Of a stretch of 64,000 nucleotides of DNA, positions 36,058-54,417 are shown one piece after another. The notes under the pieces are model-generated. The model worked only from the letters and a program-made list of their open reading frames with translations. It searched no databases and had not been told where the DNA came from. The translations under genes and the position numbers were made by a program. This DNA comes from Phycisphaerales bacterium (GTDB taxonomy: Bacteria > Planctomycetota > Phycisphaerae > Phycisphaerales > UBA1924): positions 1 through 64,000 of the forward strand of contig JADLFW010000019.1 in assembly GCA_020849615.1 (NCBI GenBank). Reading direction: 5' to 3'. Numbering within the stretch: position 1 is the stretch's first letter; the number at the start of each line of letters is the position of its first letter.

Positions 36058-36410
36058 ATGGGGGACGCTGAACCAAACGGGAGACGGGCCGGGCCGGGAC
36101 GAGCCCCGGCGGTCGCCGGTCGGCGCCTGAGCCCGGCTCGTCGCCGTCTCGTCCTCCTGGCGTTCTCCTTGGTCGTTTCGGGGCTGGTGCTGGCGATGCT
36201 CGAAGGCGGGCTGCGGCTTGCCGGCTTTGGGGGGTACCCCCCACATTCCGGCAGGTGGCCCGGCTGGCGGGCGGGGCGAATCTCTACCTGACGGACAGCG
36301 CGGGCCCGGCGTCGTACTTCTTTGCGAGCAAAGAATGGAGGGGCGGGCTGGACGCGGTCGGGGTGGTGATGCCCGAGCCGGTGGGGCAGCGCGGTTTGGT
36401 CAGCGGATGA
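36058..36410 (+). pseudogene. Truncated, frameshifted gene for an N-terminally anchored protein
   Basis: The first frame gives a signal-anchor (RRRLVLLAFSLVVSGLVLAMLEGGLRLAGFGG) and then YPPHSGRW. At the same place the next frame continues as PPTFRQVARLAGG and SAGPASYFFASKEWRGG to VGVVMPEPVGQRG and a stop at 36408-36410. The join fits loss of one C in the run CCCCCC near 36238-36243. The anchor followed by GYPP-F and a SYFFA segment resembles the start of planctomycete membrane-anchored TPR/SGNH proteins. The catalytic part is absent, since the convergent gene begins here. It is a decaying remnant. Confidence 0.7.
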
Positions 36411-38604
36411 ACTCGATGTCATCGAGGCCCAGGCGGCCGCGGGCGCTGCCCCAGGACGGGCCGAGGTCGATCCGCACGGCGGTGATGTCGGTGAGGTCGA
36501 GCTCGGGAGCCGTGTGCGTGAAGTCGGTCAGGCGGATGAGGATGGTCTCGAACTCGTTGGTCCAGCCCGCGCCGGCGCCCGAGCCGGTGCGCTGGTAGGG
36601 CTCCTCGATGCCGCCGCCGTAGGCGCCGATGTTGATGGATGAGGAGCGGCCCGCGCTGTCGCGGAGGGTGACGGTGAAGGTCAGGTCGCTCAGTTCAGCG
36701 ATGGTCTCGGGGTGGCGGGTGCCCTGGCAGGCGCGGAGGGAGAGGTAGCCGTGGACGGAGAGGTCCCGGAGCGCGGGCGGGACTTCGAACTCGACGGCCC
36801 GGTCGGCGAGGCTGTAGTCGAAGACCGCGCCGCGGGAGGTGTCGCCGGTGACAGCGCGGGTCATGCCGTTCATGGGGTCGGCGGGGAGCCACTCGTAGGT
36901 GCAGTCGGCATCGCGCATGAGGCCTTCAAAGAGGTTCGAGACAGTCGCGGCGACCGCGCCGCCCGAACTGCTGACGGTGAGGCCCGGCTGGGTCTGGTAG
37001 TCCTCGAGGATGGCCTTGGGGGCGGTGGCCGCGGCGCGGTACTCGTTCACGACGACGGATGAGGAGGAGACGGCGACGGGGCGGAAGCGTTCCCACTGGC
37101 GCCAGCGGAGCTCCTCGCCGGCATCATCGCCGGAGAGGTACAGCTTCGAGATCGCGAGGTAGACGCTCCTGGCGATGCGCTGGGCTTCCGGGCGGCCGAT
37201 CGCGGTGCCGGCCGGCCCGTCGAAATCCTCGAATCCGCAGCAGTTGAAGTCGTTGTGATCGGCGCCGTGGACATAGTTGGATTGGCGTTCGCCGGTGGCC
37301 CGTTCGAAGATGGTGAAAGGGGAGGAGGATCCGCTGGACGGGCACGGCGCGGCGAGTTCATCGCCATCGGCGGAGCCGTAGAGCAGGTGGTAGTTGACGG
37401 CGTGGGGGTCGGCGTTCGCCGGCCCGAGGCGATCGGTCGGGGCGATGCTGGAGACCAGGCGGATGCTCGCGAGTGTGTAGCCCGAGGGTGTGAACGAGCC
37501 GTCGAAGATGCGGTCGTAGGCCCGGACGACGCCTTCCCCTCCGCGCGAATGGCCGATCCACATGATGCGGGAAGCGTCGATGTGCCCCGACAGGACGCCG
37601 CCGGCGACGGTGGCCTGCTGGTTGATGATCGCGGCGGTGTGGTCGAGGGTGGTCTGGGAGGCGGTCTCGATGCCGGGCCCGGTGTTGTTCTCGTGGCTGA
37701 GGGCGATGAAGCCGTGGCTCGCGAAGAGCGTGAGCAGGTAGTCGTACCAGGTGTAGGAATGGCCGTTGCCGTGGCTGATGATGATGAGGGGGAGCGCGCC
37801 GCGGGAGGCGATGTCGGAGGGGTAGCCGATGCGGATGCTCTCGTAGGTCAGAGCGACGCTGCCGGGGGCGACGTTGGCGTTGACGAGCGTCACGGGTGTG
37901 GCGCTGTCGAGGGAGAGGTCCTTGAGCACGACGAAGCCGGGCTGGTCATCGAGACCATCGCCGACATCGCCGGGGCCCAGCAGGCCATCGCGGTCGGCAT
38001 CGATGACGAGGTCGTACCGGGCCGCGATCGATTCGCCCGTGCCCGCGGGCAGCAGCCCGGAGCCGGTGAGCACGAAACGGTTGGTGGTGATGGAGCCGGA
38101 GGTGAAGGTGATGGCCTGCGGCCCGGATGGGCGGACATCGGCGAGCGCGGGGTTGGCGGACCACTGGGCGGCGGAGCGGTCGGCGACGATGTAGACATCG
38201 GCGGTGCGGCCCGTCAGGTCCGGAAGGCGGGCCGGGCTGATCGCGAGGCTCACCGGCGCACCGGTGTTGAAGGCCTGCACGAACTCGAAGTGCGGGATGG
38301 TCTGCAGGGTGTTGCCCGCGAGCTCGGTATTGACCGGCCCGCATCCGAGTTCGTAGAGGTTGAGGAACTCGAGATAATCGGCGAAGTCGACGAGGCCATC
38401 GCCCGTGTAGTCGACTCGGGGGTCGGCGGCGTCGAAGAGCGTGAGGAAGTCGAGGTAGTCCGAGAAATCGACGAGTCCATCGCCGTTGAGGTCGGCGGGC
38501 GAACAGGGTGCGGCGAGCGCGGGCGGGCAGAGGAATGCGAGGATGCCGGCGAGCGGGAGGAACGCGGCTCGGCGGTGGAAGGGGGTGGTGGGCGGAGTGG
38601 GCAT
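36400..38604 (-). CDS. Secreted alpha/beta hydrolase with an N-terminal dockerin-like pair
   Basis: The 734-residue protein has a signal peptide (FLPLAGILAFLCPPALA). Residues 34-88 hold two dockerin-like copies (ADLNGDGLVDFSDYLDFLTLFD and YTGDGLVDFADYLEFLNLYE) enclosed by Cys34 and Cys88. An unknown beta-rich region is followed from about 260 by a hydrolase fold. The oxyanion/entry is LIIISHGNGHSYTWYDYLL and the nucleophile elbow is GHSRGGEG with Ser353; HGADHNDFNCC may supply the His. A C-terminal beta domain ends in DITAVRIDLGPSWGSARGRLGLDDIEF. It is likely an esterase or lipase-type enzyme acting outside the cytoplasm. Dockerins are usually C-terminal; here they are N-terminal. Confidence 0.75.
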   Translation of the reverse strand: MPTPPTTPFHRRAAFLPLAGILAFLCPPALAAPCSPADLNGDGLVDFSDYLDFLTLFDAADPRVDYTGDGLVDFADYLEFLNLYELGCGPVNTELAGNTLQTIPHFEFVQAFNTGAPVSLAISPARLPDLTGRTADVYIVADRSAAQWSANPALADVRPSGPQAITFTSGSITTNRFVLTGSGLLPAGTGESIAARYDLVIDADRDGLLGPGDVGDGLDDQPGFVVLKDLSLDSATPVTLVNANVAPGSVALTYESIRIGYPSDIASRGALPLIIISHGNGHSYTWYDYLLTLFASHGFIALSHENNTGPGIETASQTTLDHTAAIINQQATVAGGVLSGHIDASRIMWIGHSRGGEGVVRAYDRIFDGSFTPSGYTLASIRLVSSIAPTDRLGPANADPHAVNYHLLYGSADGDELAAPCPSSGSSSPFTIFERATGERQSNYVHGADHNDFNCCGFEDFDGPAGTAIGRPEAQRIARSVYLAISKLYLSGDDAGEELRWRQWERFRPVAVSSSSVVVNEYRAAATAPKAILEDYQTQPGLTVSSSGGAVAATVSNLFEGLMRDADCTYEWLPADPMNGMTRAVTGDTSRGAVFDYSLADRAVEFEVPPALRDLSVHGYLSLRACQGTRHPETIAELSDLTFTVTLRDSAGRSSSINIGAYGGGIEEPYQRTGSGAGAGWTNEFETILIRLTDFTHTAPELDLTDITAVRIDLGPSWGSARGRLGLDDIEFIR

Positions 38605-38698: not shown

Positions 38699-39571
38699 TC
38701 AGGCCCCGGTCTTCATGCGGATGAGCACCTGGCCGAAGCCGACGGCATCACCCCGGGCGACGGCGACCTCGCTGACGGTGCCGCCTTCGATGGCCCGGAC
38801 CGTGCCGACGAGGGGCTTTTCCTGCGGCGAAACGACGTGGGAGGCCTCGAGCTGGACGAGGGGGTCGTTGGCTTTCACGGCATCGCCGACCTTGACCAGG
38901 ATCGAAGCGATGACGCCGGGGATGGGAGCCAGGCATTCGCCGGGCCCGCCGACCGTGAGTCCGTGCCACGGCGGGCGGGGGGCCACGGGCACGGGCGCGG
39001 TTTCGGGAGCGGGCTGGGCTGCCGGTGGCGATGCGTCGGCGGGGCTGGGAGGCGCTGCGCTTTGCACGGGGCTCGCGGTCGGAGCGGGCGCCTGCGATGC
39101 GGCCGCGGCGCGAGCGGCGGCGGCCTGGTTGGATGATGCGGAGCCGGCGGGCCGGGCGACGGGCGGCCCGGCGGGCGAGCCTTCCACGCGCAGGGCGGCG
39201 GAGCCGAGCCCGGACTGATCGACCGTCTCGACTTCGACTTCGTAGGTTCTGCCCCGGAGTTTGACTCTGAGCTTCATGGGATGCTCCATGGAAGTGCCGC
39301 GGGGGGCGGCGGCGTGGCGGACGGGCCCGACGATGGCGCGGACAAGCCGCGGCCAGAAGCCGCCCCGGCCCGCGCGGGGGGGGCTGCGGGTGGGCGGCTG
39401 GGTGGGGGCGGGGGCGGGGGCGATCGGGGCGACCGCGTGCCCGCACAGGGCCATGGCGGCGGCGGCGATGATGACGAGATGTGCGATGGGGATCTCGGCC
39501 TGTGCAGCATCGGGCGGCGTGAGGCCCGGCGGGTCGATGGGCGTGGTCGGAGTTGGAGCGGGGTCGGTCAT
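38699..39571 (-). CDS. Biotin/lipoyl carrier-like subunit lacking the attachment lysine
   Basis: The last 75 residues of this 290-residue protein have the biotinyl-carrier fold pattern (APIPGVIASILVKVGDAVKANDPLVQLEA, then VGTVRAIEGG and VAVARGDAVGFGQVLIRMK). At the place where carriers read LEAMKM this protein reads LEASHV (residues 241-246), so His245 replaces the biotinylated Lys. Residues 1-98 contain a membrane span (AHLVIIAAAAMALCGHAV), as in OadG-type small subunits. The more usual carrier start MKLRVKLRGRTYEVEVE is at residue 99, and an ATG there has a GGAG site. It ends the methylmalonyl-CoA operon, 18 bases after the carboxyltransferase gene. Confidence 0.75.
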   Translation of the reverse strand: MTDPAPTPTTPIDPPGLTPPDAAQAEIPIAHLVIIAAAAMALCGHAVAPIAPAPAPTQPPTRSPPRAGRGGFWPRLVRAIVGPVRHAAAPRGTSMEHPMKLRVKLRGRTYEVEVETVDQSGLGSAALRVEGSPAGPPVARPAGSASSNQAAAARAAAASQAPAPTASPVQSAAPPSPADASPPAAQPAPETAPVPVAPRPPWHGLTVGGPGECLAPIPGVIASILVKVGDAVKANDPLVQLEASHVVSPQEKPLVGTVRAIEGGTVSEVAVARGDAVGFGQVLIRMKTGA

Positions 39572-41236: not shown

Positions 41237-41671
41237 TCAGCCGGCACGGTGGGCGGCGTGCTCGCACAGCTCGGTGAGCACGCCCATGGACGCCTTGGGA
41301 TGGACGAACGCCACGTGCGCCCCGTGGGCGCCCATGCGCGCGCGCTCGTCGATGAGGCGGACGCCCTGCGCCTTCAACTCGGCCAGACGGGCGGACAGGT
41401 CGCGCACGGTGTACGCGATGTGGTGCAGGCCTTCCCCTCGCTTCTCGATGAACGCGGCGATCGGCGACTCCGCGGAAGTCGGCTCGAGCAGCTCCAGCCG
41501 GACCGCGTGATCGGCCGGGCCCAGCGCGTAGAAGGCGACGCGGACGTGCTGGTCGGGGACTTCCTCGACACCCTCGAAGCGGGCCCCGAGCACATCCTCG
41601 TAGAACCCGCGCTGCGCATCGACCGAGCGAACCGCGATGCCGATGTGATTGACCGCAGATGCGTTGACCAC
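41237..41671 (-). CDS. mce: Methylmalonyl-CoA epimerase
   Basis: The 144-residue protein is a vicinal-oxygen-chelate fold with NHIGIAVRSVDAQRGFYEDVLG at the start, a middle VRLELLEPTSAESPIAAFIEKRGEGLHHIAY and an end IDERARMGAHGAHVAFVHPKASMGVLTELCEH, supplying the metal-binding His and Glu residues. It interconverts (2R)- and (2S)-methylmalonyl-CoA. I chose the GTG at 41671 after GAAGGAG; the open frame extends upstream but overlaps meaB. Its place between the mutase genes and the carboxyltransferase completes the pathway segment. Confidence 0.9.
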   Translation of the reverse strand: MVNASAVNHIGIAVRSVDAQRGFYEDVLGARFEGVEEVPDQHVRVAFYALGPADHAVRLELLEPTSAESPIAAFIEKRGEGLHHIAYTVRDLSARLAELKAQGVRLIDERARMGAHGAHVAFVHPKASMGVLTELCEHAAHRAG

Positions 41672-41777
41672 GGCCGCTCCTTCACGAAGACCTGGCCGTC
41701 GGGCCCGGGCCGCCGCCCGACAGGAGACTCTATCGCCGGGCCGCCCGGCGATCGCCCGCGGCCCGCGCACCGGGCGC

Positions 41778-42872
41778 TCAAACCGGGCCGATTCCCCGTG
41801 CATCGGCCAGGAATGCAGCGATGACGCGCCGGGCCGCGGCCCCGGGAGTCATGGCCGAATCCCGAACGCCCGCCTCGGCCGCCGCCAGCGCCGCGGCCGC
41901 CGCTGGGGAAGCCGCGAGCAGCATGCGCAGACGGTCATCGATCAGCGATCGCATCCAGCGCAGCCGCTGCTCACGCCGCCGGGCCTCGAGCCGGCCCGTC
42001 ACTCTCAGGCCCTCTACGTGGCGATCGATCAGACCCCAGATGGCCTCGACGCCTTCACCGGTGGCGGCGCTGCACGTCACCACCGGCGCGGGCGCCCCGG
42101 CCCGGAGCATGCGGACGGCGGTCGTCAGCTCGCCCGCGGCGATGCGGGCCCGGGCCACGTTGTCGCCATCGGCCTTGTTCACCGCGATGATGTCCACGAT
42201 CTCGAGCAGCCCGCGCTTCACCCCCTGCAGTTCATCGCCGGAGCCCGGCAGCGCCAGCGTCAGCACGCAGTCGCACATGTCGGCTACGACGGTCTCGGAC
42301 TGCCCGACGCCCACCGTCTCGATGAGCACGGCGTCGAAGCCCGCGGCCTCGCACAGCAGCCCGGCCTCGCGGGTCCGCCGGGCCACGCCGCCGAGCGTGC
42401 CGCCGCTCGGAGACGGCCGGATGAACGCCCGTGATTCGGTCGCCAGGCGGCCCATGCGGGTGCGGTCGCCCAGGATCGAGCCGCCCGAAATTGTGCTGGA
42501 GGGATCGATCGCCAGCACGGCGATGCGCATTCCCCGGCCGCAGAGCATGAGGCCCAGCCGCTCGATGAACGTGGACTTGCCCGCGCCCGGGACGCCGGTG
42601 ATGCCGATGCGCACGGCCCGGCCCGTGCGGGGCAGCAGCGCCCGGAGCACCTCATCGGCCTGTTCCGCGTGCGCCGGGTTCGTCGATTCGATGAGGGAAA
42701 TGGCCCGGGCCAGCACCGCTCGGTCGCCCGAGGTGACGCCCGCGACCATCTGCTCGGTCGATAACGGCGGCGGCGCGGGCGGGCGCGGGGGGCGGGCCTG
42801 CGGATGGTGGTCCGTGAGCGCGATGACGCTCATCGCAAATCCCGGAGAGCTGTTCTCGCCGGCCCGGCTCAC
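41778..42872 (-). CDS. meaB: MeaB/ArgK-type GTPase, methylmalonyl-CoA mutase chaperone
   Basis: The 364-residue G3E-family P-loop GTPase has Walker A GVPGAGKS at 93-100, the IDPSS switch region, [38 protein letters not shown] and an NKADGDN base-specificity motif. It protects and reloads the B12 cofactor of methylmalonyl-CoA mutase. The GTG overlaps the stop of mutB by 4 bases (GTGA), so translation is coupled. The N-terminal 40 residues are Pro-rich, longer than in most homologues; a later ATG at residue 14 is an alternative start. Confidence 0.93.
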
Positions 42873-45067
42873 GATGCGCCGCCGGCAGGCCCGCGCCCGC
42901 GCTCGAGTTCATCCAGCACGCGCAGGGCGGCGGGCCCGATCGCGGTGCCGGGCCCGAAGATGGCGGCGACGCCCATGCGCTCCAGTTCCGGGTAATCCTG
43001 CGGAGGAACGACACCGCCGACCACGACGAGGATGTCGGGCCGGCCCGCCTGAGCCAGCGACTTCATCAGCGCGGGCACGAGCGTGAGGTGCCCCGCGGCG
43101 AGCGAGGAGATGCCGACGATGTGGACATCATTCTCGACGGCCTGGCGGGCGACCTCATCGGGGGTCTGGAAGAGCGGGCCGATGTCGACATCGAACCCCA
43201 TGTCGGCGAAGGCGCTGGCGACGACCTTCTGGCCGCGGTCGTGGCCATCCTGGCCCATCTTGGCGACCAGCAGGCGCGGGCGGCGGCCCTCGCGCTGCTC
43301 GAAGGCCGCAGCGCGCTGGCGGACAGCGGCGAGGCCCGGTTCGTCCGGGCCCGCCTCACCGGCGTAGACGCCACGCGCGGCCCGCACGGCCGCCTGATGC
43401 CGACCGAAGACATTCTCGAGCGCCATGGAGATCTCCCCTACGGTGGCCCGGGCCCGTGCTGCTTCGATCGAGAGTTCCAGCAGGTTCCCCGCCCCTTCAC
43501 GGGCCGCCGACTCCAGGGCGGTGAGCGTGCGCTCGACGCGCGGGCCATCCCGCGAGCCCCGGAGCTGCGCCAGGCGCGCCACCTGCGCCTCGCGCACGGC
43601 GGAGTTGTCGATGCGGAGGACATCGACCGGTTCGGCCCGGCCCGGCCGGTACTTGTTGACCCCCACCACCGTCTGCCGGCCCGAGTCGATCCGGGCCTGG
43701 GCCCGGGCGGCGGCCTCCTCGATGCGCATCTTGGGAATGCCCGCCTCGATGGCCCGGGCCATGCCGCCGAGCTCTTCGATCTCCGCGATGTGCGACCAGG
43801 CGCGCTGCGCGAGGTCGTGGGTCATGCGCTCCACGGCGTACGAGCCGCCCCACGGGTCGATGACGCGGCAGGTGTCGGTCTCGAGCTGGAGGAAGAGCTG
43901 GGTGTTGCGGGCGATCCGGGCCGAGAACTCGGTGGGCAGGGCCAGGGCCTCATCGAGCGCGTTGGTGTGGAGGCTCTGCGTGTGCCCCTGCGTCGCGGCC
44001 ATCGCCTCGATGCAGGTGCGCACGACGTTGTTGTAGACATCCTGCGCGGTGAGGCTCCAGCCGCTGGTCTGGCTGTGGGCCCGCAGCGACATGCTCCGCT
44101 CGTTCTTCGGATTGAACTGCCGGACGATGGACGCCCACAGCAGCCGCGCGGCCCGGAGCTTGGCGACTTCCATCAGGAAGTGCGTGCCGATGCCCCAGAA
44201 GAAGCTGAGGCGCGGGGCGAACTCGTCGATGTCGAGACCCCGGGCCACGCCGGTGCGCAGGTACTCCAGGCCGTCGGCGAGCGTGTAGGCCAGCTCGATG
44301 TCGGCCGTCGCGCCCGCCTCCTGCATGTGGTAACCGCTGATCGAGATGCTGTTGAACCTGGGCATGCGGCGGGCGCAGAAGTCGAAGATGTCGCCGATGA
44401 TCCGCATGCTCGGGCCCGGCGGATAGATATAGGTGTTGCGGACCATGAACTCCTTGAGGATGTCGTTCTGGATCGTGCCCGACAGCCGGGCCGGCGCGAC
44501 GCCCTGTTCTTCGCCCGCGACGATGAACATCGCCAGCACCGGCAGCACCGCGCCGTTCATCGTCATCGAGACGCTGATGCGGTCGAGGGGGATGCCGGCA
44601 AAGAGCGTGGCCATGTCCAGCACGCTGTCGATCGCAACGCCGGCCATGCCCACATCGCCCGCGACGCGCGGGTGGTCGCTGTCGTAACCGCGGTGGGTGG
44701 CCAGGTCGAAGGCGACCGAGAGCCCCTTCTGCCCGGCGGCCAGGTTGGCCCGGTAGAACGCGTTGCTGGCTTCCGCGGTGCTGAAGCCCGCGTACTGGCG
44801 CACGGTCCAGGGCTTGAGCACGTACATGGTGGGGTACGGGCCGCGGACGAACGGCGGCAGGCCCGGCAGGCCGTCAAGGTGCTCAACGCCGTGCAGGTCC
44901 TCCTCGTGGTACTCGGGCTTTATGTCGAGCAGCTCCGGCGTCTGCCATGCGAGCTGCCCGGGAGAGCGGCCCGTCGCCTCGTGCACCAGCTCTGACCAGC
45001 GGCGCGCATCGAGGTCGGGCCGCGCATCACCCAGGGGCACGGTCGCGAAGTCGGGGATCACCGTCAT
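42869..45067 (-). CDS. mutB: Methylmalonyl-CoA mutase, large catalytic subunit
   Basis: The 732-residue protein has the TIM-barrel substrate domain ([30 protein letters not shown], and [33 protein letters not shown]) and a C-terminal cobalamin domain with the base-off motif DGHDRG (His609). It interconverts succinyl-CoA and methylmalonyl-CoA by a radical mechanism. The ATG at 45067 overlaps the mutA stop (ATGA). The [33 protein letters not shown] segment is canonical. It forms a heterodimer with MutA. Confidence 0.97.
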
Positions 45068-47181
45068 GAGGCCACCCCCTCTTCCTCGAGGAGCTCGCTC
45101 AGGAGTGCCACCACATCGCACCTGACGAAGACGAAGCGGTCAACTCCGGCAGCGCGGTACGCGGCCTCGGCCGGGCCGGGGTTGCCGGCGAGGATGATCT
45201 GGTGCGCGCCGGCGCTGCGCAGGAGCGGCGCCAGCGCGGGGACGGCTTGGGTGTACTGCTCATCGCTCCCGCAGATGACGGTGAGGTGCGCGCCGCTCGC
45301 GGCGAACGCCGCCGCCGCGGCCGCGATCGATCCGTCACCCTCGCCACCCAGCACTTCGAAGCCCCCCGCCGCGAAGAGGTTGCGGCAGAAGTTCACCCGC
45401 GGCAGGCGCTCCGCCACCGGGCCGATCGCGGCGAGGGCCACGCGCGGCCGGGAGCCGCACTGATCGGTGTACCGATCGCTGGCTTCCCGCAGGTGCTCGA
45501 ACGGCTCGGCGAACGGGTGAACGGCGACCGCCGCCTTCAGCACGGCGGCCCGGCCCGGGCCGACGCCCAGGTCTGCCGAGAGTTCACCGATCGAGGCTCC
45601 GGCGGCCGCCCGCCGCGCGGCCCAGGCGCTTCGCTCGCCCGCCGGCCCGCCGATCGGCGCGGGCGCCTCATCGCCGGACGGGCGGGCGGCCCGGGCCGCG
45701 AGGCGCCGGCAGGCATCGGCGATGATCCGGGCCCGGTCGGGCGGCGCCGGGTGCGGCGCCGACTCGTGCACATCCAGGAAGTCGCTGACGCCGACCACGA
45801 TCTCCTTCCTCGTCGCGAGGTTGTGGATACGCGGCTGCGCGGCGGTGTCGATCTGCCCGGCGATCCAGCCATCCGCGAGCGCACGGGCCATGCCGCCGCG
45901 GGCCTCGATGGCCTGCAGGATCACCCACGCCTTCTGCGCCAGTTCATCCGTCAGCTTCTCGATGTACCACGAGCCGCCCGCCGGGTCGGCGATGCGGTGC
46001 AGCCGGCACTCTTCCATGAGCAGATGGTGCGTGTTCCTCGCGATCCGCCGCCCCAGCGCGGAAGGTTCGCCCAGCGTCGAGTCGAACGGGGCGCTCGCGA
46101 TCGCATCCGCGCCGCCGATTCCCGCGGCGAAGACGCACGCCGTGTTGCGCAGCAGGTTGACCCACGGATCGCGCGTCGTGAGCACCCGCTTGCTGGGCCG
46201 CGCGTACATCACCATGCGGCGGGCCTCGGCGCCGCCCCCGCACGCCTCGACAACGCGGGCCCACATCCTGCGCGCGGCCCGGAGCTTGGCCGCGGCCAGG
46301 AAGAACCCGCAGCCCACGGCGTAGGAAAAAAGGACCTGCCCGGCCGCCCGTTCCGGCGTCAGGCCCGCGCGGGTCATCGCGCGGAGATACTCGAGCGCGG
46401 TCGCCATCGAGAACGCCAGGTCCTGCGTGGCGGTGGCGCCGGCGTGGTGATACGCGGCGGTGCCGACGCGAACAGCGCGGACTCGCGGGTATGTCCGGCC
46501 CGTCCACACCGCGAGGTCCGCGAGCCGGGCCAGGCCTTCATCGACCGAGTACGGCAGGTGCCCATCGCGGGCCAGAACGGCGAGCGGGTCGGACTGGAAG
46601 GCGCCCGAGGCCGCTTCCGGCGGCACACCGCGCCGGGCCCACAGCGCGGCCAGCAGCGCCGCGGCGGGAAGGAACGCGGCGCCGGGCTCGAGGCAGACAC
46701 CGATCATCTCGAGGTGAACACCCTCGAGCGCGCGGTCGAGGTCATCGACGCCGTAGGCGGCTGCGCCATCGGTCGCGGCGAGGGCGGCGCCGTGCGGGTC
46801 GACGGGATCGAGCCCGGCCCGGGCGCAGGCATCCAGCCGCAGCACCACCGACGCGACGCCGCCCGCCAGGTCATCACGAATCGCTTCGTTGACCGCCGCG
46901 GGATCGGCCTCGCCGCGTTCCTGGCGGATCTCCCAGCCGACCTGGCTGTTGCCGAGCACGCGGGCGCCGCGCGTCATGGGCATGAGGCCCGTGAACCCGG
47001 AGGCGGCGGGCCCGGCGTCGGCGCGGGTGTAGAGGGGCTGGATGTGGATCCCCTCGTAGGTGTGCGTGATGAGGCGGCGTTCGAAGGGCGCGCCCTTCAG
47101 GTCGGCCTCGACGAGCTGGAGCCATCGATCGCGGCCCGGCGCGCTGAATCGGCCCGCGGTCTCGAGCGGGGGAAGCGGCAT
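45064..47181 (-). CDS. mutA: Methylmalonyl-CoA mutase, small subunit
   Basis: The 705-residue protein shares the mutase barrel ([74 protein letters not shown] and [45 protein letters not shown]). It lacks a functional B12 histidine in the degenerate C-terminal domain ([21 protein letters not shown]), as expected for the noncatalytic partner of MutB. The ATG follows GGAGGATGCTCCC. A promoter lies at 47238-47266 and the gene heads a six-gene operon reaching 38699. Confidence 0.93.
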
Positions 47182-47237
47182 GGGAGCATCCTCCGGCGGT
47201 GCAAGTTGCGCGCCGCCGACCGTCATCCGACAAACGG

Positions 47238-47325: not shown

Positions 47326-48615
47326 ATGTCGATGGCACGTGTGAGTTCCGCCCTGGATGCGGTTTCCGGCATACGCAGCGGCATGCACATCTTCGTCCAC
47401 GGCTGCGCCGCCACGCCGGTGCCCCTGCTGGACGCCCTTGCTTCCCGCGATGACCTGCGGGACATCACCGTTTACCACCTGCACACCGAGGGAACCAGCT
47501 CGTTCGTGTCCCCCGAGGTTGCGGGGCGCATCCGTTCCTGCTCGTTCTTCACGGGCCCGGCCGCCCGGCCCGCCGTGCAGGACGGGCGGGCCGACTTCGT
47601 TCCCGTGTTCCTCTCCGATGTGCCCGCCCTGTTCTACAGCGGGCGGGTCAAACTCGACGCCGCGTTCGTGCAGCTCTCACCCGCCGACCGCCACGGCATG
47701 CACACGCTGGGCACATCGGTCGACACGGCCCGCGCCGCGGTGGACACCGCGCCGATGGTCATCGCCGAGATCAACGCGCAGATGCCGCGGACCAGCGGCA
47801 ACACCGTCGTCGAGCGCCGCAAGCTGACGGCGTGGTTCGAGACCGACCGGGCCCTGCCCGACCATCCCCCGACGCCGATCGGCCCGATCGAATCCCGCAT
47901 CGGCGAGCTGATCGCCGACCTGGTCGAGGACGGCTCGACGCTCCAGATGGGCATCGGGGCGATCCCCGATGCCGTTCTGGCCCGGCTGGGCAACAAACGC
48001 GACCTCGCCGTGCACTCCGAGATGTTCTCGGACGGGCTGATCGAACTGATCGAGAACGGCGTCGTCACCAACCGCCTCAAGAAAGTCCACCCGGGCCGGA
48101 CCGTGACCAGCTTCGTGAACGGCTCGCGCCGCCTCTACGACTTCGTGCACGAGAACGCCCTCGTCGAGTTCCACGGCTGCGACCGCACCAACGACACGGC
48201 GATGATCCGCAAGAACCCCAAGGTCGTCGCCATCAACAGCGCCCTGGAGGTCGACCTGACGGGCCAGGTCTGCGCTGACTCCATGGGGCACCGCATCTAC
48301 TCCGGTATCGGCGGCCAGATGGACTTCATCCGCGGCGCTGCGCTCTCCGAGGGCGGCAAGCCCATCATCGCCCTGCCTTCCACCGCCGCGGGCGGCAGGA
48401 TTTCCCGCATCACCGCCGAACTCGCCGCCGGCGCCGGCGTCGTCACCACCCGCGGGCACGTCCACTGGGTCGTCACCGAGTACGGCGCCGTCAACCTCTA
48501 CGGCCTCTCGCTCCGTCAGCGCGGCGAAGCCCTCTGCTCGATCGCCCACCCCGACTTCCGGGCCGACCTCGCGCGCAAGCTCGCGGCCACGCGCCACTAC
48601 ACCATCCGGGCCTGA
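47326..48615 (+). CDS. Acetyl-CoA hydrolase/transferase family CoA-transferase
   Basis: The 429-residue protein is a Cat1/4-hydroxybutyrate CoA-transferase-like enzyme with VPVFLSDVPALFYSG, DGSTLQMGIGAIPDAVLARLGNKRDLAVHSEMFSDG (Glu232 is the expected CoA-carrying residue) and GGQMDFIRGAALSEGG, GRISRITAEL and ARGHVHWVVTEYGAVNLYG-type C-terminal elements. It would swap CoA between acyl-CoA and carboxylate, for example propionyl-CoA and succinate or acetate. Divergent from mutA. A second ATG at 47332 is better spaced from the GGGAGGGA site. The end overlaps the convergent rhaB end by 19 bases. Confidence 0.85.
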   Translation: MSMARVSSALDAVSGIRSGMHIFVHGCAATPVPLLDALASRDDLRDITVYHLHTEGTSSFVSPEVAGRIRSCSFFTGPAARPAVQDGRADFVPVFLSDVPALFYSGRVKLDAAFVQLSPADRHGMHTLGTSVDTARAAVDTAPMVIAEINAQMPRTSGNTVVERRKLTAWFETDRALPDHPPTPIGPIESRIGELIADLVEDGSTLQMGIGAIPDAVLARLGNKRDLAVHSEMFSDGLIELIENGVVTNRLKKVHPGRTVTSFVNGSRRLYDFVHENALVEFHGCDRTNDTAMIRKNPKVVAINSALEVDLTGQVCADSMGHRIYSGIGGQMDFIRGAALSEGGKPIIALPSTAAGGRISRITAELAAGAGVVTTRGHVHWVVTEYGAVNLYGLSLRQRGEALCSIAHPDFRADLARKLAATRHYTIRA

Positions 48616-50072
48616 ACGGCCCGGGCCCGCTCCCACGCGGCCTGATCCTGCGGGTCGTAGCGCACGATCGGGAACGATGCGGCGATGACCGCGCGGATGT
48701 CGCCCAGCGATGCCACCCGGCCCAGCGCAAGAGCCTGGCCCATGGCGTTGCCCGCCGCGGTCGCTTCGACGGGCCCGGCCAGCACGGGCCGCCCGGCGGC
48801 GTTGGCGGTGAACTGGCAGAGCAGGTCGTTGCGGCTCCCCCCGCCCACCAGGTGAATGACGCGCACGGGCCCCGTGAGGGCTTCGAGGCGATCGATCACA
48901 GCTGCGCACCGCAGGGCCAGGCTCTCGAGGATGCAGCGCGCGATCGCGCCGTCGGTGGCGGGCTCCGGCCCGCCCGCGCGGGCGCAGAACTCCCGGATCC
49001 GGGCCGGCATGTCGGCGAACTCGCCGAAGGAGGGGTGATCGGGGTCGATCAATGCGCTCAGCGACGGCGCGGCGAGCGTGAGGATGCGCAGCTGATCAAA
49101 GGTGTACCGGCGATCCAGGCCCGCCCAGTGACGCTGGCATTCCTGGAGAAGCCAGAGCCCCGCGACGTTTTTGTGGAATCTGATCGTGTTCCCCACGCCG
49201 CACTCGTTGGTGAAGTTGGCGGCGAGCGCCTCGGGTGTCCGGAGGGGCGCTGCAAGTTCCCGGCCCACAAGGCTCCACGTGCCCGAACTGATATACGCCC
49301 AATCCGACGCCGGGCCGGACGCCGGCACGGCGGCGACCGCCGACCCGGTGTCGTGGCTCGCGGGCGCGATGACCGGAACGGGCCCGACGCCGGTCTCCTC
49401 GGCCACCGCGCGGGCCAGAATCCCCACGGTCGTGCCGGGCGCGGCCACCTCAGGGAAGATCCGCGCGGGCAGGCCCAGCTCCGTGATGAGATCGGTCGCC
49501 CATGCTCGATCGGCGGTGTCGAAGAGCTGCGAGGTGCTGGCGTTGGTCTGCTCGCTGCACCGGCGGCCCGTGAGCCAGAAGTTGAGCAGGTCGGGCATGA
49601 ACAGCAGCGTCTGGGCCCGGGCCAGCGGGTTGTCGGGAGCTCGCTGCTCGGCCATGAGCTGGTACAGCGTGTTGATCTCCATGAACTGGATGCCGGTGCG
49701 CGCGTAGATCCGGTCGCGCGGGACCACCTTCGCGGCCTCATCCATCAGGCCCCGGGTCCGCGGGTCGCGGTAGTGGCGGGGCAAGCCGAGCAGCTCCCCG
49801 CCCGGCGACAGCAGCCCGTAGTCCACCCCCCAGGTATCGATGCCGATGCCGCTGAGCTTCACACCGGCGCGGGCCGCCAGCCGAAGCCCCTGCTTCACTT
49901 CCGCGAGAAGCCGGGGCGCATCCCAGAAGAGCCCGCCGGGGCGCTGCACCGGCCCGTTCGGGAACCGGTGGAGTTCACGCAGCGTGAGCCGGGCGCCATC
50001 GAACGAACCCAGGACCGCGCGGCCGCTGGCGGCGCCCAGATCGATCGCGAGGTAGTGGTCGCTGACGGGCAT
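48597..50072 (-). CDS. rhaB: L-rhamnulokinase
   Basis: The 491-residue protein is an FGGY carbohydrate kinase. It begins with the nucleotide-binding loop YLAIDLGAASGRAVLG. It also contains the sugar-site stretch GIDTWGVDYGLL, the later FMPDLLNFWLTGRRCSEQTNASTSQLFD characteristic of rhamnulokinase, ASHDTGSAVAAVP and the C-terminal ATP site HLVGGGSRNDLLCQFTANAAGRPV. It phosphorylates L-rhamnulose to rhamnulose-1-phosphate in the cytoplasm. The gene follows rhamnose isomerase with a 6-base gap and its 3' end overlaps that of the CoA-transferase gene by 19 bases. Confidence 0.93.
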   Translation of the reverse strand: MPVSDHYLAIDLGAASGRAVLGSFDGARLTLRELHRFPNGPVQRPGGLFWDAPRLLAEVKQGLRLAARAGVKLSGIGIDTWGVDYGLLSPGGELLGLPRHYRDPRTRGLMDEAAKVVPRDRIYARTGIQFMEINTLYQLMAEQRAPDNPLARAQTLLFMPDLLNFWLTGRRCSEQTNASTSQLFDTADRAWATDLITELGLPARIFPEVAAPGTTVGILARAVAEETGVGPVPVIAPASHDTGSAVAAVPASGPASDWAYISSGTWSLVGRELAAPLRTPEALAANFTNECGVGNTIRFHKNVAGLWLLQECQRHWAGLDRRYTFDQLRILTLAAPSLSALIDPDHPSFGEFADMPARIREFCARAGGPEPATDGAIARCILESLALRCAAVIDRLEALTGPVRVIHLVGGGSRNDLLCQFTANAAGRPVLAGPVEATAAGNAMGQALALGRVASLGDIRAVIAASFPIVRYDPQDQAAWERARAVQARMV

Positions 50073-50078
50073 GCGGCC

Positions 50079-51275
50079 TCAGGCGTACGACGCGGTGGTG
50101 TTCCGCTTCCGCGGCGCGCGATCGGCGGCGGCCCGCGCGAGGTACCCGCTCTGACGGAAGGCGTCGAGCGGATCACGCGGCAGCCCGCGCGCGGCCCGGT
50201 AGTCGGCGAGGAAGGGGCGCACATCGGCGGCGAACGCATCCTTGAGCGCCCGCTCCGCCATGACGACATCATCCCGGGCCCGGGCCTCGGCCGCGGCGGC
50301 GTGGTCGACGAGCATGGCCCGCGTGAACTGCTCTTGCGCGGCGACGACCGTTTCGAGCATCGCCTCGGTCTTGGGCTTGATGCTCTCGGACTGATCGATC
50401 ATGTACGCGATCGGCAGGTCGCGGCCCATCTCCCGTTCGGCGAGCACGATCTCCTGGAAGACGCGGAAGAACTGGTAGGGGTCGATGGCCCCGACGGTCA
50501 GGTCGTCATCGGCGTACTTGCGGTCGTTGAGGTGAAACCCGCCCAGCATCCCCTCATCGATGAGGAACGCGACGATGTGCTCGATGTTGCACCCCGGCAG
50601 GTGATGCCCGGTGTCGACGAGCACCCTGGCCCGCGGCCCGGCGGCGCGGGCGAAGGCGGCCGCCATCCCCCAGTCGGCGATGTCGGTGTGGTAGAAGGCC
50701 GGCTCGAAGGGCTTGTACTCGACCAGCATCGCCATGCCGGGCGGCAGCGCCGCGTGCACACGGGCCAGCGCCTCGGCGAGCCAGCGTTTGCGCTGGCGAA
50801 TATGACCCTGACCCGGGTAGTTCGTGCCGTCCGCGAACCACAGGCTGAGCACATCCGAACCCGTCCGCTGGGCGAGCCCGATGCTCTCGATGATGTGGTC
50901 GAGGGCCCGCCCGCGCACCGCGGCATCCCGGTTGGTCAGCGACCCGAGCTTGTAGCACTGGTCCTGGAACACATTGGGGTTGATCGAACCGATCCGCAGG
51001 CCCAGCGCGCCGGCGCGGGCCGCCACGGCCGAGGGGTCCGTCCCCGCCGCGAAATCCCACAGCACGTGCAGGGCAACTCGGGGGCAGCACCCGGTCACGC
51101 CGTGCACCGCGGCGGCATCCGCGAGCTTCTCTTCGATGGTCGCCGCCGCCGCATCCTGGAAGAACTTGCCGAACCGGGTGCCCGTGTCGGCGTACCCCCA
51201 CGACGGCGTCTCGAGCTCGAAGCGGTCGAGGCGGCGGCAGAGGTCCTGCTCGGACAGGCCACGGGGCAGTTTCAT
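50079..51275 (-). CDS. rhaI: L-rhamnose isomerase, xylose-isomerase-like (RhaI type)
   Basis: The 398-residue TIM-barrel protein matches the metal-dependent rhamnose isomerases of the Pseudomonas/Bacillus type. Visible are GYADTGTRFGKFFQDAAA, LGSLTNRDAAVRGRALDHIIESIGLAQRTGSDVLSLWFADGTNYPGQG, LVEYKPFEPAFYHTDIADWGMAAAF, VLVDTGHHLPGCNIEHIVA and GFHLNDRKYADDDLTVGAIDPYQFFRVFQEI, which hold the Mn-binding Glu, Asp and His residues. It converts L-rhamnose to L-rhamnulose. It heads the leftward rhaI-rhaB unit, divergent from the aldolase/dehydrogenase. A TATGCT -10 hexamer lies 13 bases upstream of the ATG. Confidence 0.93.
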   Translation of the reverse strand: MKLPRGLSEQDLCRRLDRFELETPSWGYADTGTRFGKFFQDAAAATIEEKLADAAAVHGVTGCCPRVALHVLWDFAAGTDPSAVAARAGALGLRIGSINPNVFQDQCYKLGSLTNRDAAVRGRALDHIIESIGLAQRTGSDVLSLWFADGTNYPGQGHIRQRKRWLAEALARVHAALPPGMAMLVEYKPFEPAFYHTDIADWGMAAAFARAAGPRARVLVDTGHHLPGCNIEHIVAFLIDEGMLGGFHLNDRKYADDDLTVGAIDPYQFFRVFQEIVLAEREMGRDLPIAYMIDQSESIKPKTEAMLETVVAAQEQFTRAMLVDHAAAAEARARDDVVMAERALKDAFAADVRPFLADYRAARGLPRDPLDAFRQSGYLARAAADRAPRKRNTTASYA

Positions 51276-51288
51276 AGGTACGGGCCAG

Positions 51289-51294
51289 CATACC
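51289..51294 (-). promoter_or_regulatory. -10 element TATGCT before rhaI
   Basis: Leftward, TATGCT is the complement of 51289-51294, the same hexamer as for mutA. Thirteen bases separate it from the ATG at 51275, so the transcript would be nearly leaderless. No good -35 element was seen, which could mean an activator is needed. Confidence 0.35.
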
Positions 51295-51429
51295 GCACCG
51301 GGCCCGGCCCCGAGTGCGCGGCGGATGCGGCTAGACTTGCCTTCACGCCGGATCGGACGGCACAAGGAAGCGGAACGGGCGCCGCCGGCGGGGCCCGCAG
51401 ACCCGCACCGCGAGGGGAGATCGGCGAGC

Positions 51430-53634
51430 GTGGCGGAGAACCAGACATTCCGTTTCGTGAACCACCTGTGGGATGATCAGCGGGCCCGGACGATGGACCC
51501 CGTCGCCCGGCTGGTCTACCGCTCCAACCTGCTGGGGCAGGACCAGCGCATCACCAACACCGGCGGCGGCAACACGTCGGCCAAGGTGCGCGAGAAGGAC
51601 CCCCTCACCGGCGAGATGGTCGATGTGCTCTGGGTCAAGGGCTCCGGCGGCGACCTGCGCACCGCCGACAAATCGTTCTTCTCGTCACTCTACCAGGACC
51701 GCCTGCTGGGCCTGCGCGCGACCTACCAGCGGGCCGAGCCGCGCGGGCCCAAGACGCCGATCGAAGATGAGATGGTCAGCATGTACGGCCACTGCACCTT
51801 CAACCTCAACCCCCGCGCCTCATCCATCGACACCCCCCTGCACGCCTTCGTCCCTCACCGCCACGTCGACCACACCCACCCCAACGCGGTCATCTCGGTC
51901 GCCGCCTCGCGCAGCGGGCCGGAACTGACCCGGGCCATCTACGGCGATGAGGTCATCTGGCTCCCCTGGCAGCGCCCCGGCTTCGATCTCGGCCTGCGCC
52001 TCGCCGAGGTCTGCCGCCAGCACCCGGGCGCCAAGGGCGCCATCCTCGGCCAGCACGGGCTCATCAACTGGGCCGATGACGACCGCGCCTGCTACGACCT
52101 TTCGCTCCGCCTCATCGAGAAGGCCGCCGCGTACATCGCCGCCCACGACCGCGGTGAACAGACCTTCGGCGGCGCCGCCCACCGGGCGCTCCCGCCCGAT
52201 GAGCGCCGGGCCGTGCTCACCCAGTTTCTTCCGTGGCTGCGCGGGCGGCTCGTCGCCGGAGGCACAGGCAACTGGCCGCGGCAGATCGCCACCATCCAGG
52301 ATGACGAGGCCATCCTGCGGTTCGTGAACAGCCGTGATGCGGTCCGGCTTGCCGAGCTGGGCACTTCCTGCCCGGACCACTTCCTGCGCACCAAGATCAA
52401 GCCGATGCTGGTTGACTGGTCCCCCGAGGCGGGGGACATCGCCGGGCTCAAATCGCGCCTCGACGCCGAGCTGGCCCGGTACCGCGAGGATTACGCCGCG
52501 TACTACGCGCGCTGCCGCCGCTCCGATTCGCCCGCGATGCGCAACCCCAACCCCTCCGTGATCCTCATCCCCGGCGTCGGCATGATCGCGTGGGGCAAGA
52601 ACAAGAGCGAATCGCGGGTCACCGCCGAGTTCTACACCTGCGCGGTGGAGGTGATGCGCGGCGCCGAGGCCATCGGCGAGTACGTCGCGCTCCCGCAGCA
52701 GGAGGCCTTCGACATCGAGTACTGGCTGCTCGAAGAAGCCAAGCTCCGCCGCATGCCCCCCGAGCGCGAACTCGCCGGGCAGGTCGCGGTCGTGGTCGGT
52801 GCCGCCGGCGGCATCGGCCGGGCCGTCGCCAAGCGATGCGCATCCGAGGGCGCCCACATCGCGTGCATCGACTTGGACCAGGTCGGCGCCCGCACCACCG
52901 CCGAGGCCGTCGTGGCCCGGCAGGGCGCCGGCATCGGAGTCGCCGGGAGCGGGATCAGCTCTTGCGGGCCCGCCATCGGCCTCGCCGCCGATCTCACCGA
53001 CCGGGCCAGCATCCGGGCCGCCCTCGACCAGGCCATCCTGGCCTACGGCGGCGTGGACAGCGTCGTCATCACCGCGGGTGTGTTCGTGCCGCCCGACACC
53101 TCCGGGCGCATCGCCGATGGAAGCTGGGCCCGCACCTTTGCGGTCAACGTCACCGGCGCGTACCTGGTGGCGGATGAATCGGCCCGGATCTGGCGCGAGC
53201 AGGGCCTGCCCGCGAGCCTGGTGCTGACGACCAGTGTGAACGCGGTTGTGGCGAAGAAAGGCAGCCTCGCGTACGACACGAGCAAGGCGGCGGCGAACCA
53301 CCTCGTCCGCGAGCTCGCCGTCGAGCTCGCCCCGCTGGTCCGCGTCAACGGCGTGGCGCCGGCGACCGTCATCGAGGGCAGCTCGATGTTCCCGCGCGAG
53401 CGCGTCATCGCCTCGCTGGCCAAGTACGGCATCGCCTTCACGCAAGAGGAATCGACCGACAGCCTCATCGCCAAGCTCGGCTCGTTCTACGCGGCCCGGA
53501 CGCTCCTCAAGAAGGCTATCACGCCCGAGGATCAGGCCGAGGCCGCGTTCCTCCTCGTGAGCGGACGGCTCGCCAAGACCACGGGCCAGACGATCAGCGT
53601 GGATGCCGGGCTCGCCGATGCGTTCCTGCGATAA
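51430..53634 (+). CDS. rhaEW: Bifunctional rhamnulose-1-phosphate aldolase / short-chain alcohol dehydrogenase
   Basis: Residues 1 to about 430 are a class II aldolase domain: ITNTGGGNTSAKV, WVKGSGGDLRTADKSFFSSLYQDR and the zinc-site HVDHTHPNAV (His148, His150), plus GQHGLINWADDDRACYD. Residues 450-734 are an NAD-dependent short-chain dehydrogenase with GAAGGIG (457-463), the active-site NAVVAKKGSLAYDTSKAAANH (Tyr and Lys) and the end TTGQTISVDAGLADAFLR. The fusion cleaves rhamnulose-1-phosphate to DHAP and L-lactaldehyde and oxidises the latter to lactate. GTG at 51430 was chosen. Directly followed by lutABC. Confidence 0.93.
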   Translation: MAENQTFRFVNHLWDDQRARTMDPVARLVYRSNLLGQDQRITNTGGGNTSAKVREKDPLTGEMVDVLWVKGSGGDLRTADKSFFSSLYQDRLLGLRATYQRAEPRGPKTPIEDEMVSMYGHCTFNLNPRASSIDTPLHAFVPHRHVDHTHPNAVISVAASRSGPELTRAIYGDEVIWLPWQRPGFDLGLRLAEVCRQHPGAKGAILGQHGLINWADDDRACYDLSLRLIEKAAAYIAAHDRGEQTFGGAAHRALPPDERRAVLTQFLPWLRGRLVAGGTGNWPRQIATIQDDEAILRFVNSRDAVRLAELGTSCPDHFLRTKIKPMLVDWSPEAGDIAGLKSRLDAELARYREDYAAYYARCRRSDSPAMRNPNPSVILIPGVGMIAWGKNKSESRVTAEFYTCAVEVMRGAEAIGEYVALPQQEAFDIEYWLLEEAKLRRMPPERELAGQVAVVVGAAGGIGRAVAKRCASEGAHIACIDLDQVGARTTAEAVVARQGAGIGVAGSGISSCGPAIGLAADLTDRASIRAALDQAILAYGGVDSVVITAGVFVPPDTSGRIADGSWARTFAVNVTGAYLVADESARIWREQGLPASLVLTTSVNAVVAKKGSLAYDTSKAAANHLVRELAVELAPLVRVNGVAPATVIEGSSMFPRERVIASLAKYGIAFTQEESTDSLIAKLGSFYAARTLLKKAITPEDQAEAAFLLVSGRLAKTTGQTISVDAGLADAFLR

Positions 53635-53649
53635 AGAGGATGAGCCGCG

Positions 53650-54417
53650 TTGCGAGTCTCCCTGTTCATCACCTGCCTGGGCGATTCGTACTTCCCGCGG
53701 GCCGGGATCGCGGCGGTCAAGGTGCTCGAGCGGCTCGGCTGCGCTGTCGATTTCCCCGCGGGCCAGACCTGCTGCGGCCAGCCCATGCACAACAACGGGT
53801 TCGCGCCCGAGGCCCGCGCCCTGGCGGCCCGGATGATCCGCATCTTCGCCGCCAGCGAGCACATCGTGACCGTTTCGGGCTCGTGCGCTTCGATGGTCCG
53901 CGAGCACTACCCCGCCATCCTCGCCGACAGCCCCGACGCCGCCGCGGCCCGCGCCCTCGCCGAGAAGACCTTCGAGTTCGGCGAGTTCCTGGTCAATGTG
54001 CTGAAGGTCGACCTTGCGGCGCTGGGTGTGCGCTGGACGGGCCGGGCCACCTATCACTACTCCTGCCACCTCCGCGGCATCGGCGTCACCACCGAGACGC
54101 CCCGCCTCCTCCGCCAGATCGAAGGCCTGGAGCTGACGCCGCTGGAGAACCCCGAGCAGTGCTGCGGATTCGGCGGCACGTTCTCCACCAAGTACGACCA
54201 GATCTCCGCCGCGATGGCCCGCGACAAGGCCGCCGCCATCCGGGCCAGCGGCGCCGGCACGGTCGTCAGCAGCGAGCCGGGCTGCACCATGAACATCGCC
54301 GGCGCGTGCCGCCGCGCGGGCCACGCGGTCGATTTCAAAAGCCTCCCAGAGATCATCGCGGAAGGCATGGGCCTGCTCGAGCCCGGGCCGCCGCGCGCCG
54401 GCGAGGCCCGGCCATGA
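53650..54417 (+). CDS. lutA: L-lactate oxidation protein LutA (CCG-domain iron-sulfur protein)
   Basis: The 255-residue protein has two Cys-Cys-Gly heterodisulfide-reductase-type repeats: AGQTCCGQPMHNNGF and EQCCGFGGTFSTKYDQIS, plus VSGSCASMVREHYP and SEPGCTMNIAG. It forms, with LutB and LutC, the three-part L-lactate dehydrogenase that passes electrons to the respiratory chain. The start is a TTG at 53650, 15 bases after the aldolase stop, with AGAGGATG upstream. It overlaps lutB by 4 bases. Confidence 0.93.
   Translation: MRVSLFITCLGDSYFPRAGIAAVKVLERLGCAVDFPAGQTCCGQPMHNNGFAPEARALAARMIRIFAASEHIVTVSGSCASMVREHYPAILADSPDAAAARALAEKTFEFGEFLVNVLKVDLAALGVRWTGRATYHYSCHLRGIGVTTETPRLLRQIEGLELTPLENPEQCCGFGGTFSTKYDQISAAMARDKAAAIRASGAGTVVSSEPGCTMNIAGACRRAGHAVDFKSLPEIIAEGMGLLEPGPPRAGEARP

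Follow-up and report, generated by a model that had tools for sequence, protein, structure and literature searches.

Biotin enzymes are thought to need the lysine of the AMKM motif, and the locus described here raises the question of what use a bacterium makes of a biotin carrier that is encoded directly after a carboxyltransferase (CT) and has a histidine in place of this lysine. The window, i.e., the whole analyzed stretch of 64,000 nucleotides, is part of contig C19 of the 4.57-Mb draft genome (G000) of a Phycisphaerales bacterium. Its operon runs on the minus strand in the order second mutase subunit, methylmalonyl-CoA mutase (MCM), MeaB, epimerase, CT, and carrier (Table 1). A previous sequence-only reading had spoken of a full methylmalonyl-CoA operon with the carrier directly after the CT; the gene order is as it had described, but the pump subunit OadB is missing. 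The same reading had been correct about both the extent of the carrier gene, 38699-39571, and its motif LEASHV, i.e., L-E-A-S-H245-V, with His245 (codon CAC at 38837-38839) at the position where the biotin lysine is expected.

Table 1. Features of the carrier operon and its flank (positions of the window)
Feature	Coordinates	Strand	Evidence
Lysine-less MmdC-type carrier with a short OadG-like piece fused at the N terminus, 290 aa	38699..39571	-	ORF and motif; Pfam Biotin_lipoyl; fold/Foldseek
Rebuilt hairpin tip SHVVSPQEKPL (residues 244-254), replacing the MKM turn	38810..38842	-	Alignment; AF2
N-terminal extension (residues 1-98) with helix HLVIIAAAAMAL, probable OadG C-terminal remnant without membrane helix	39278..39571	-	Position; helix similarity
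Carboxyltransferase (CT), MmdA/12S type, 540 aa	39590..41212	-	Pfam Carboxyl_trans, 613.7 bits; TIGR01117 mmdA, 729.7 bits, below cut-off of 998.8
Methylmalonyl-CoA epimerase	41237..41803	-	TIGR03081, 146.4 bits, cut-off 114.95
MeaB GTPase, mutase chaperone	41778..42872	-	Pfam MeaB, 347.4 bits
Methylmalonyl-CoA mutase with B12-binding domain	42869..45121	-	Pfam MM_CoA_mutase and B12-binding
Second methylmalonyl-CoA mutase-type subunit	45064..47187	-	Pfam MM_CoA_mutase, 418.4 bits; no B12-binding domain reported
CoA-transferase, acetyl-CoA hydrolase/transferase family, divergent from the operon	47326..48615	+	Pfam PF13336, PF02550

The carrier fold, which had been described as well preserved, is indeed intact: Pfam Biotin_lipoyl (PF00364) matches residues 219-286 with 32.1 bits, and the AF2 model retrieved biotinyl domains in Foldseek, including those of the P. 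horikoshi BCCP (TMt 0.95) and TC 1.3S (TMt 0.87). PF00364 also matched in 15 of 15 carriers of the clade introduced below, in which the biotinyl (barrel-sandwich) domain is thus present. The protein begins with an MmdC-type segment (MKLRVKLRGRTYEVEVE), followed by a Pro/Ala linker and the biotinyl domain, and in its start (MK[LM]R..V.G..Y.V.VE), linker, fold, and place after the CT it resembles MmdC of the Na+-translocating methylmalonyl-CoA decarboxylase, whose fold is also that of TC 1.3S. It differs from MmdC by the absence of the biotin lysine, a hairpin tip that is eight residues longer, and the lack of an OadB partner and of the OadG anchor. The NCBIfam model MmDecMmdC gives 17.0 bits for the window carrier (cut-off 200), and a lysine-bearing relative from the same operon type is likewise below the cut-off (83.4).

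The change at the biotin site is larger than an exchange of lysine for histidine, since the whole tip is rebuilt. Sequence and AF2 model agree that the AMKM-type tight turn with the biotinylated lysine is replaced by SHV and an 11-residue loop (residues 244-254) between strands 237-243 and 255-259, with a mean pLDDT that falls from 93-98 in the blocks preceding the loop to 75-88 in those spanning it. In the G021 carrier, modeled as a control, strands 85-91 and 94-99 are joined by a 2-residue turn. The elongation by eight residues in the alignment with EAMKM carriers of related genomes amounts to 11 in G182 and G183, and the exact site of the extra residues depends on the alignment, MAFFT placing them after GTVRA and the two AF2 models at the tip. 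EAMKME is invariant in 12 lysine-bearing relatives. Among the long-tip carriers no tip residue is invariant, and the idea that the rebuilt loop supplies a catalytic residue was rejected on this ground. We infer that the window subunit is not biotinylated.

A search of the GTDB family (163 genomes) revealed a CT of the window type in 18 genomes, 14 of which encode a long-tip carrier without the conserved lysine. The tip reads SHV in the window and SAV, SHL, SNV, SKL, SHS, ASK, ARK, SST, SSA, or SGH in the other members; two more lysine-less carriers (SDA and SAA) from another family of the class bring the total to 16 Phycisphaerae genomes. The position of the lysine is occupied by H, A, N, K, S, R, G, or D across the long-tip carriers, the K being that of the SKL tips of G103 and G104; in G081, G083, and G084 a lysine stands next to the position, and all five have the long tip and not the AMKM context. 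The nearest database relatives are JALHNL010000033.1 and JADYYE010000047.1 (Phycisphaerales bacterium). In a tree of 32 CT sequences, which took in 15 of the 16 lysine-less genomes, the 15 lysine-less CTs form one group with a support of 100/99. This group requires one change of label and lies within Phycisphaerae that have OadB, and the tree thus shows a single origin of the lysine-less CTs.

Such a distribution leaves hardly any room for a sequencing error or a decaying gene as the cause. The loss of the lysine and the variable loop sequence speak for such a cause, but the same insertion and open reading frames recur in 15 further genomes from independent assemblies, which rules out an error or frameshift: comparison with homologues of related genomes, as had been proposed, thus identified the lysine loss as clade-wide (16 genomes) and not as a local error. 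Decay is ruled out by dN/dS values of about 0.08-0.17 in close pairs of full-length lysine-less carriers, i.e., 0.09 for G103/G104, 0.14, 0.10, and 0.08 among G081, G083, and G084, and 0.17 for G182/G183, a pair in which dS is saturated; since dS is saturated for distant pairs, selection was read from close pairs only. These low values indicate that the lysine-less carrier keeps a role. The carrier gene of G018 is split over two contig ends (C142 and C33) with an 18-base overlap; C142 terminates at its 3' end in the Illumina adapter sequence AGATCGGAAGAGC, and the carrier continues on C33. A more divergent lysine-less carrier (IEAPPALTPGGGRTFAG) follows an OadG-like piece at the end of a contig in G087 (C245:43896-44195) and was kept outside the 16, its CT not having been found.

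The lysine is not the only part that was lost. The Na+-translocating methylmalonyl-CoA decarboxylase comprises OadB and an OadG with a membrane helix; OAD_beta adjoins the carrier in lysine-bearing operons, and this profile had no match in the window's genome or in any other of the 16 lysine-less genomes. Although drafts can miss genes, 16 absences out of 16 are not chance gaps, and the downstream operon flank is covered in most genomes. Oxygen use was rejected as the reason for the loss of the pump: COX1 does not discriminate between the two types of genome, 29 of the 30 having it. Among the lysine-bearing relatives checked there is one exception, G389, which lacks OadB but encodes an EAMKM carrier (C1:1850056-1850259) with no CT of the window type nearby.

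Between CT and carrier, the lysine-bearing relatives encode OadG, in which a membrane helix precedes a soluble C-terminal part (..HLVVIAAAVAA..), whereas in the lysine-less genomes only the C-terminal part without the membrane helix was seen. In both the window and G145, the reading frame at this place continues in frame into the carrier. Since the profile match of this piece is weak (17.0 bits for the window copy and 5.9 in G145, where the top score among 2000 random frames is 17.7), its assignment in the window is based on its location and the HLVIIAAAA helix. The N-terminal membrane span of the sequence-only reading is doubtful, because AF2 predicts a helix of just 12 residues (30-41) at the place of the soluble helix EHLVVIAAAVAA that follows the OadG membrane helix in the relatives; the putative span is probably this leftover soluble helix. 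An OadG-like role of the carrier had also been considered, and this is half right: the gene looks like an MmdC with an apparent short OadG-derived piece at its start, the carrier proper being of MmdC descent.

The partner of the carrier belongs to the PCC beta/12S/MmdA family. Its best solved relative is transcarboxylase 12S (1on3), with 1vrg and PCC beta chains also among the best matches, and the motifs GPCAGGAAYSPA and A[YF]GGAYVAM are kept in the CT of all lysine-less members. Of the columns that are invariant in lysine-bearing CTs, the lysine-less CTs kept 53 of 60 on the C-terminal (biotin) side and 55 of 62 on the N-terminal side, and the mean distance ratio C/N is 0.98 compared with 1.14 in lysine-bearing CTs, which shows no apparent relaxation of the biotin-side half. 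In the MdcE subunit of the biotin-independent malonate decarboxylase, weak conservation was linked by the authors to the lack of biotin binding (PMC5534430); a biotin-side half diverged in this way was not found in the lysine-less CTs (C/N 0.98). Measured against MdcE, the CT therefore still looks like a biotin user, although the constraint on its C-terminal half could come from the oligomer structure instead of biotin binding. Contacts of the BCCP on the CT have been described for the Leishmania PCC (PMC10148081). The lysine-less clade has its own CT changes in well-conserved motifs, namely, DVPGF to DTPGY, V250 to N/D, and G230 to R/H. A second full-length CT (637-aa frame) is encoded in G000 (C33:141570-143138), with similar genes in G018, G021, and G001; with one biotin carboxylase per genome, it would also need AccB/AccC or no biotin.

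If the CT uses biotin, the source has to be sought elsewhere in the genome, a search that the sequence-only reading had recommended and that in G000 found AccB only and one biotin carboxylase. PF00364 matched at seven places in G000, which are AccB, three E2 proteins, an HlyD-type protein, the window carrier, and a small lipoyl-like protein; a hidden EAMKM paralogue was not among them. AccB, which lies on the same contig as the biotin carboxylase at a distance of 1.4 kb, is the only one of these proteins with a biotin lysine, and the carrier in G000 can therefore only be AccB if the CT uses biotin. Exactly one biotin carboxylase match was obtained in every lysine-less genome. EAMKVF or EAMKVFSE is the AccB motif beside the biotin carboxylase at most loci with covered flank; an AccB with EAMKVF stands there in G018, G081, G083, G277, G145, G100, G068, and G182 and was not seen in the biotin carboxylase flank covered for the other seven lysine-less genomes. 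A dedicated biotin carboxylase and carrier for the CT were not found, and the one AccC-type biotin carboxylase together with AccB could serve it. The small lipoyl-like domain of G000 (C47:47102-47269) lies directly before an E2 gene and has ETDFAH where ETDKA with the lipoyl lysine is expected; it is the second lysine-less carrier-type domain of this genome.

The best explanation, which we put forward tentatively and at somewhat less than an even chance, is that the window protein, itself not biotinylated, acts as a structural subunit or adaptor for a soluble CT, which would depend in trans on the biotin of AccB/AccC. A Na+-pumping methylmalonyl-CoA decarboxylase would have become a soluble enzyme in one Phycisphaerae clade; comparison with the relatives shows that OadB and the OadG membrane helix are gone and that MmdC lacks the biotin lysine and has a tip rebuilt into a longer loop. 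The carrier, probably turned to another use, may have been retained as a non-catalytic subunit that no longer sends biotin into the CT active site and probably still binds the CT by its conserved N-terminal segment. With both halves of its active site, the CT would most likely use AccB biotin charged by AccC, so that CT and AccB/AccC would together make up a propionyl-CoA carboxylase whose biotin half is shared and in which the lysine-less subunit might aid assembly or docking, as reported for BADC in plant acetyl-CoA carboxylase. Of the two options offered by the sequence-only reading, lost function with another carrier serving the CT or a structural role, neither fits as well as a combination of the two: the whole clade lacks the biotin site, AccB is the only carrier with a biotin lysine in G000, and the low dN/dS indicates a retained role, but the carrier is not OadG-like. 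The loss of OadB, the rebuilding of the tip, and the extent of the change across the clade had escaped that reading.

The CoA-transferase neighbor and the decarboxylase descent fit the decarboxylase direction equally well. The CT might decarboxylate methylmalonyl-CoA directly, with neither biotin nor sodium pumping, the carrier plugging or shaping the former biotin site and the operon with its CoA-transferase functioning like E. coli sbm. Descent from a decarboxylase, the joint absence of biotin site and pump, and the clade-specific CT changes would suit such an enzyme; MdcD-MdcE, which is CT-like and can act on malonyl-CoA, is a precedent (PMC5534430), and the layout resembles that of the sbm operon (PMC5512728). 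A biotin-side half that is unrelaxed, unlike that of MdcE, and a loop with no invariant residue for catalysis argue against it, and we consider it the main rival, if a rather unlikely one. The corresponding history, in which a sodium pump that depended on biotin gave rise, in a single event, to a soluble methylmalonyl-CoA decarboxylase working without biotin and the lysine-less former carrier was kept with its rebuilt loop in the old biotin site of the CT, likewise appears unlikely. Sequence alone cannot decide between this decarboxylase and the adaptor subunit. An inhibitory model exists for BADC in the literature, and the conserved N-terminal segment of the window subunit should still allow this subunit to bind the CT, where it might compete with or block the charged carrier; such a regulator is improbable, given the cotranscribed layout with the CT in every genome, which gives no sign of separate control, and the arguments of the BADC authors against the inhibitory model (PMC11926652). 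If the rebuilt tip carried a different prosthetic group or a modification, the serine at the first tip position of most members would be a candidate site, but three members have alanine there, no tip residue is invariant, and the clade comparison found no conserved gene for a replacement or a modifying enzyme downstream of the carrier. A replacement gene at this place was therefore rejected, and a modified tip is very improbable.

The locus has features in common with several known systems, and no paper on the enzyme of this clade was found. BADC, a paralogue of the plastid BCCP without the biotinylation motif, acts with the BC and BCCP of acetyl-CoA carboxylase and has a reported role in assembly (PMC11926652); like the window protein, it is a BCCP-like domain without the biotinylation motif that selection has kept beside a carboxylase, whereas the window protein is bacterial, derives from and replaces MmdC, and accompanies an MmdA-type CT. 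MdcD-MdcE is also a CT-fold enzyme and the soluble counterpart of a biotin-dependent Na+ pump, but MdcE has diverged and its substrate is bound to an acyl carrier protein (PMC5534430), in contrast to the conserved biotin side of the window CT. The E. coli sbm operon encodes the mutase ScpA, the MeaB-type protein ArgK, the biotin-independent ScpB, and the CoA-transferase ScpC (PMC5512728). It shares with the window the mutase, the MeaB-type protein, and the CoA-transferase around the methylmalonyl-CoA/propionyl-CoA step, but ScpB is reported to be biotin independent and has no carrier (PMC5512728), whereas a CT, a lysine-less carrier, and an epimerase are present here. PCC has a CT of the same family (PCC beta), and the difference lies in the lack of a dedicated alpha subunit (biotin carboxylase plus carrier) in genomes with one biotin carboxylase each.

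One bacterial clade thus lacks the pump subunit together with the membrane anchor and the biotin site, yet its carrier is still under selection. The subunit would be a bacterial counterpart of plant BADC, apparently of independent origin, and the clade offers a natural experiment on roles of biotinyl domains besides carrying biotin and on the conversion of Na+-pumping decarboxylases into soluble enzymes. For annotation it serves as a warning, since these genes score as biotin carriers yet lack the usual attachment site.

A CoA-transferase beside the operon was also found in G145 (79%), G277 (70%), and G104 (64%, contig end). On the far side of this gene, the window continues with an apparent rhamnose-type sugar cluster (FGGY kinase, xylose-isomerase-like protein, and aldolase-dehydrogenase fusion) and then LutA/LutB-like lactate utilization genes (48597-55904). 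Just downstream of the operon, the minus strand encodes a secreted-type hydrolase with Chlorophyllase/PETase-like Pfam matches and a GC-type dockerin domain (36400-38604).
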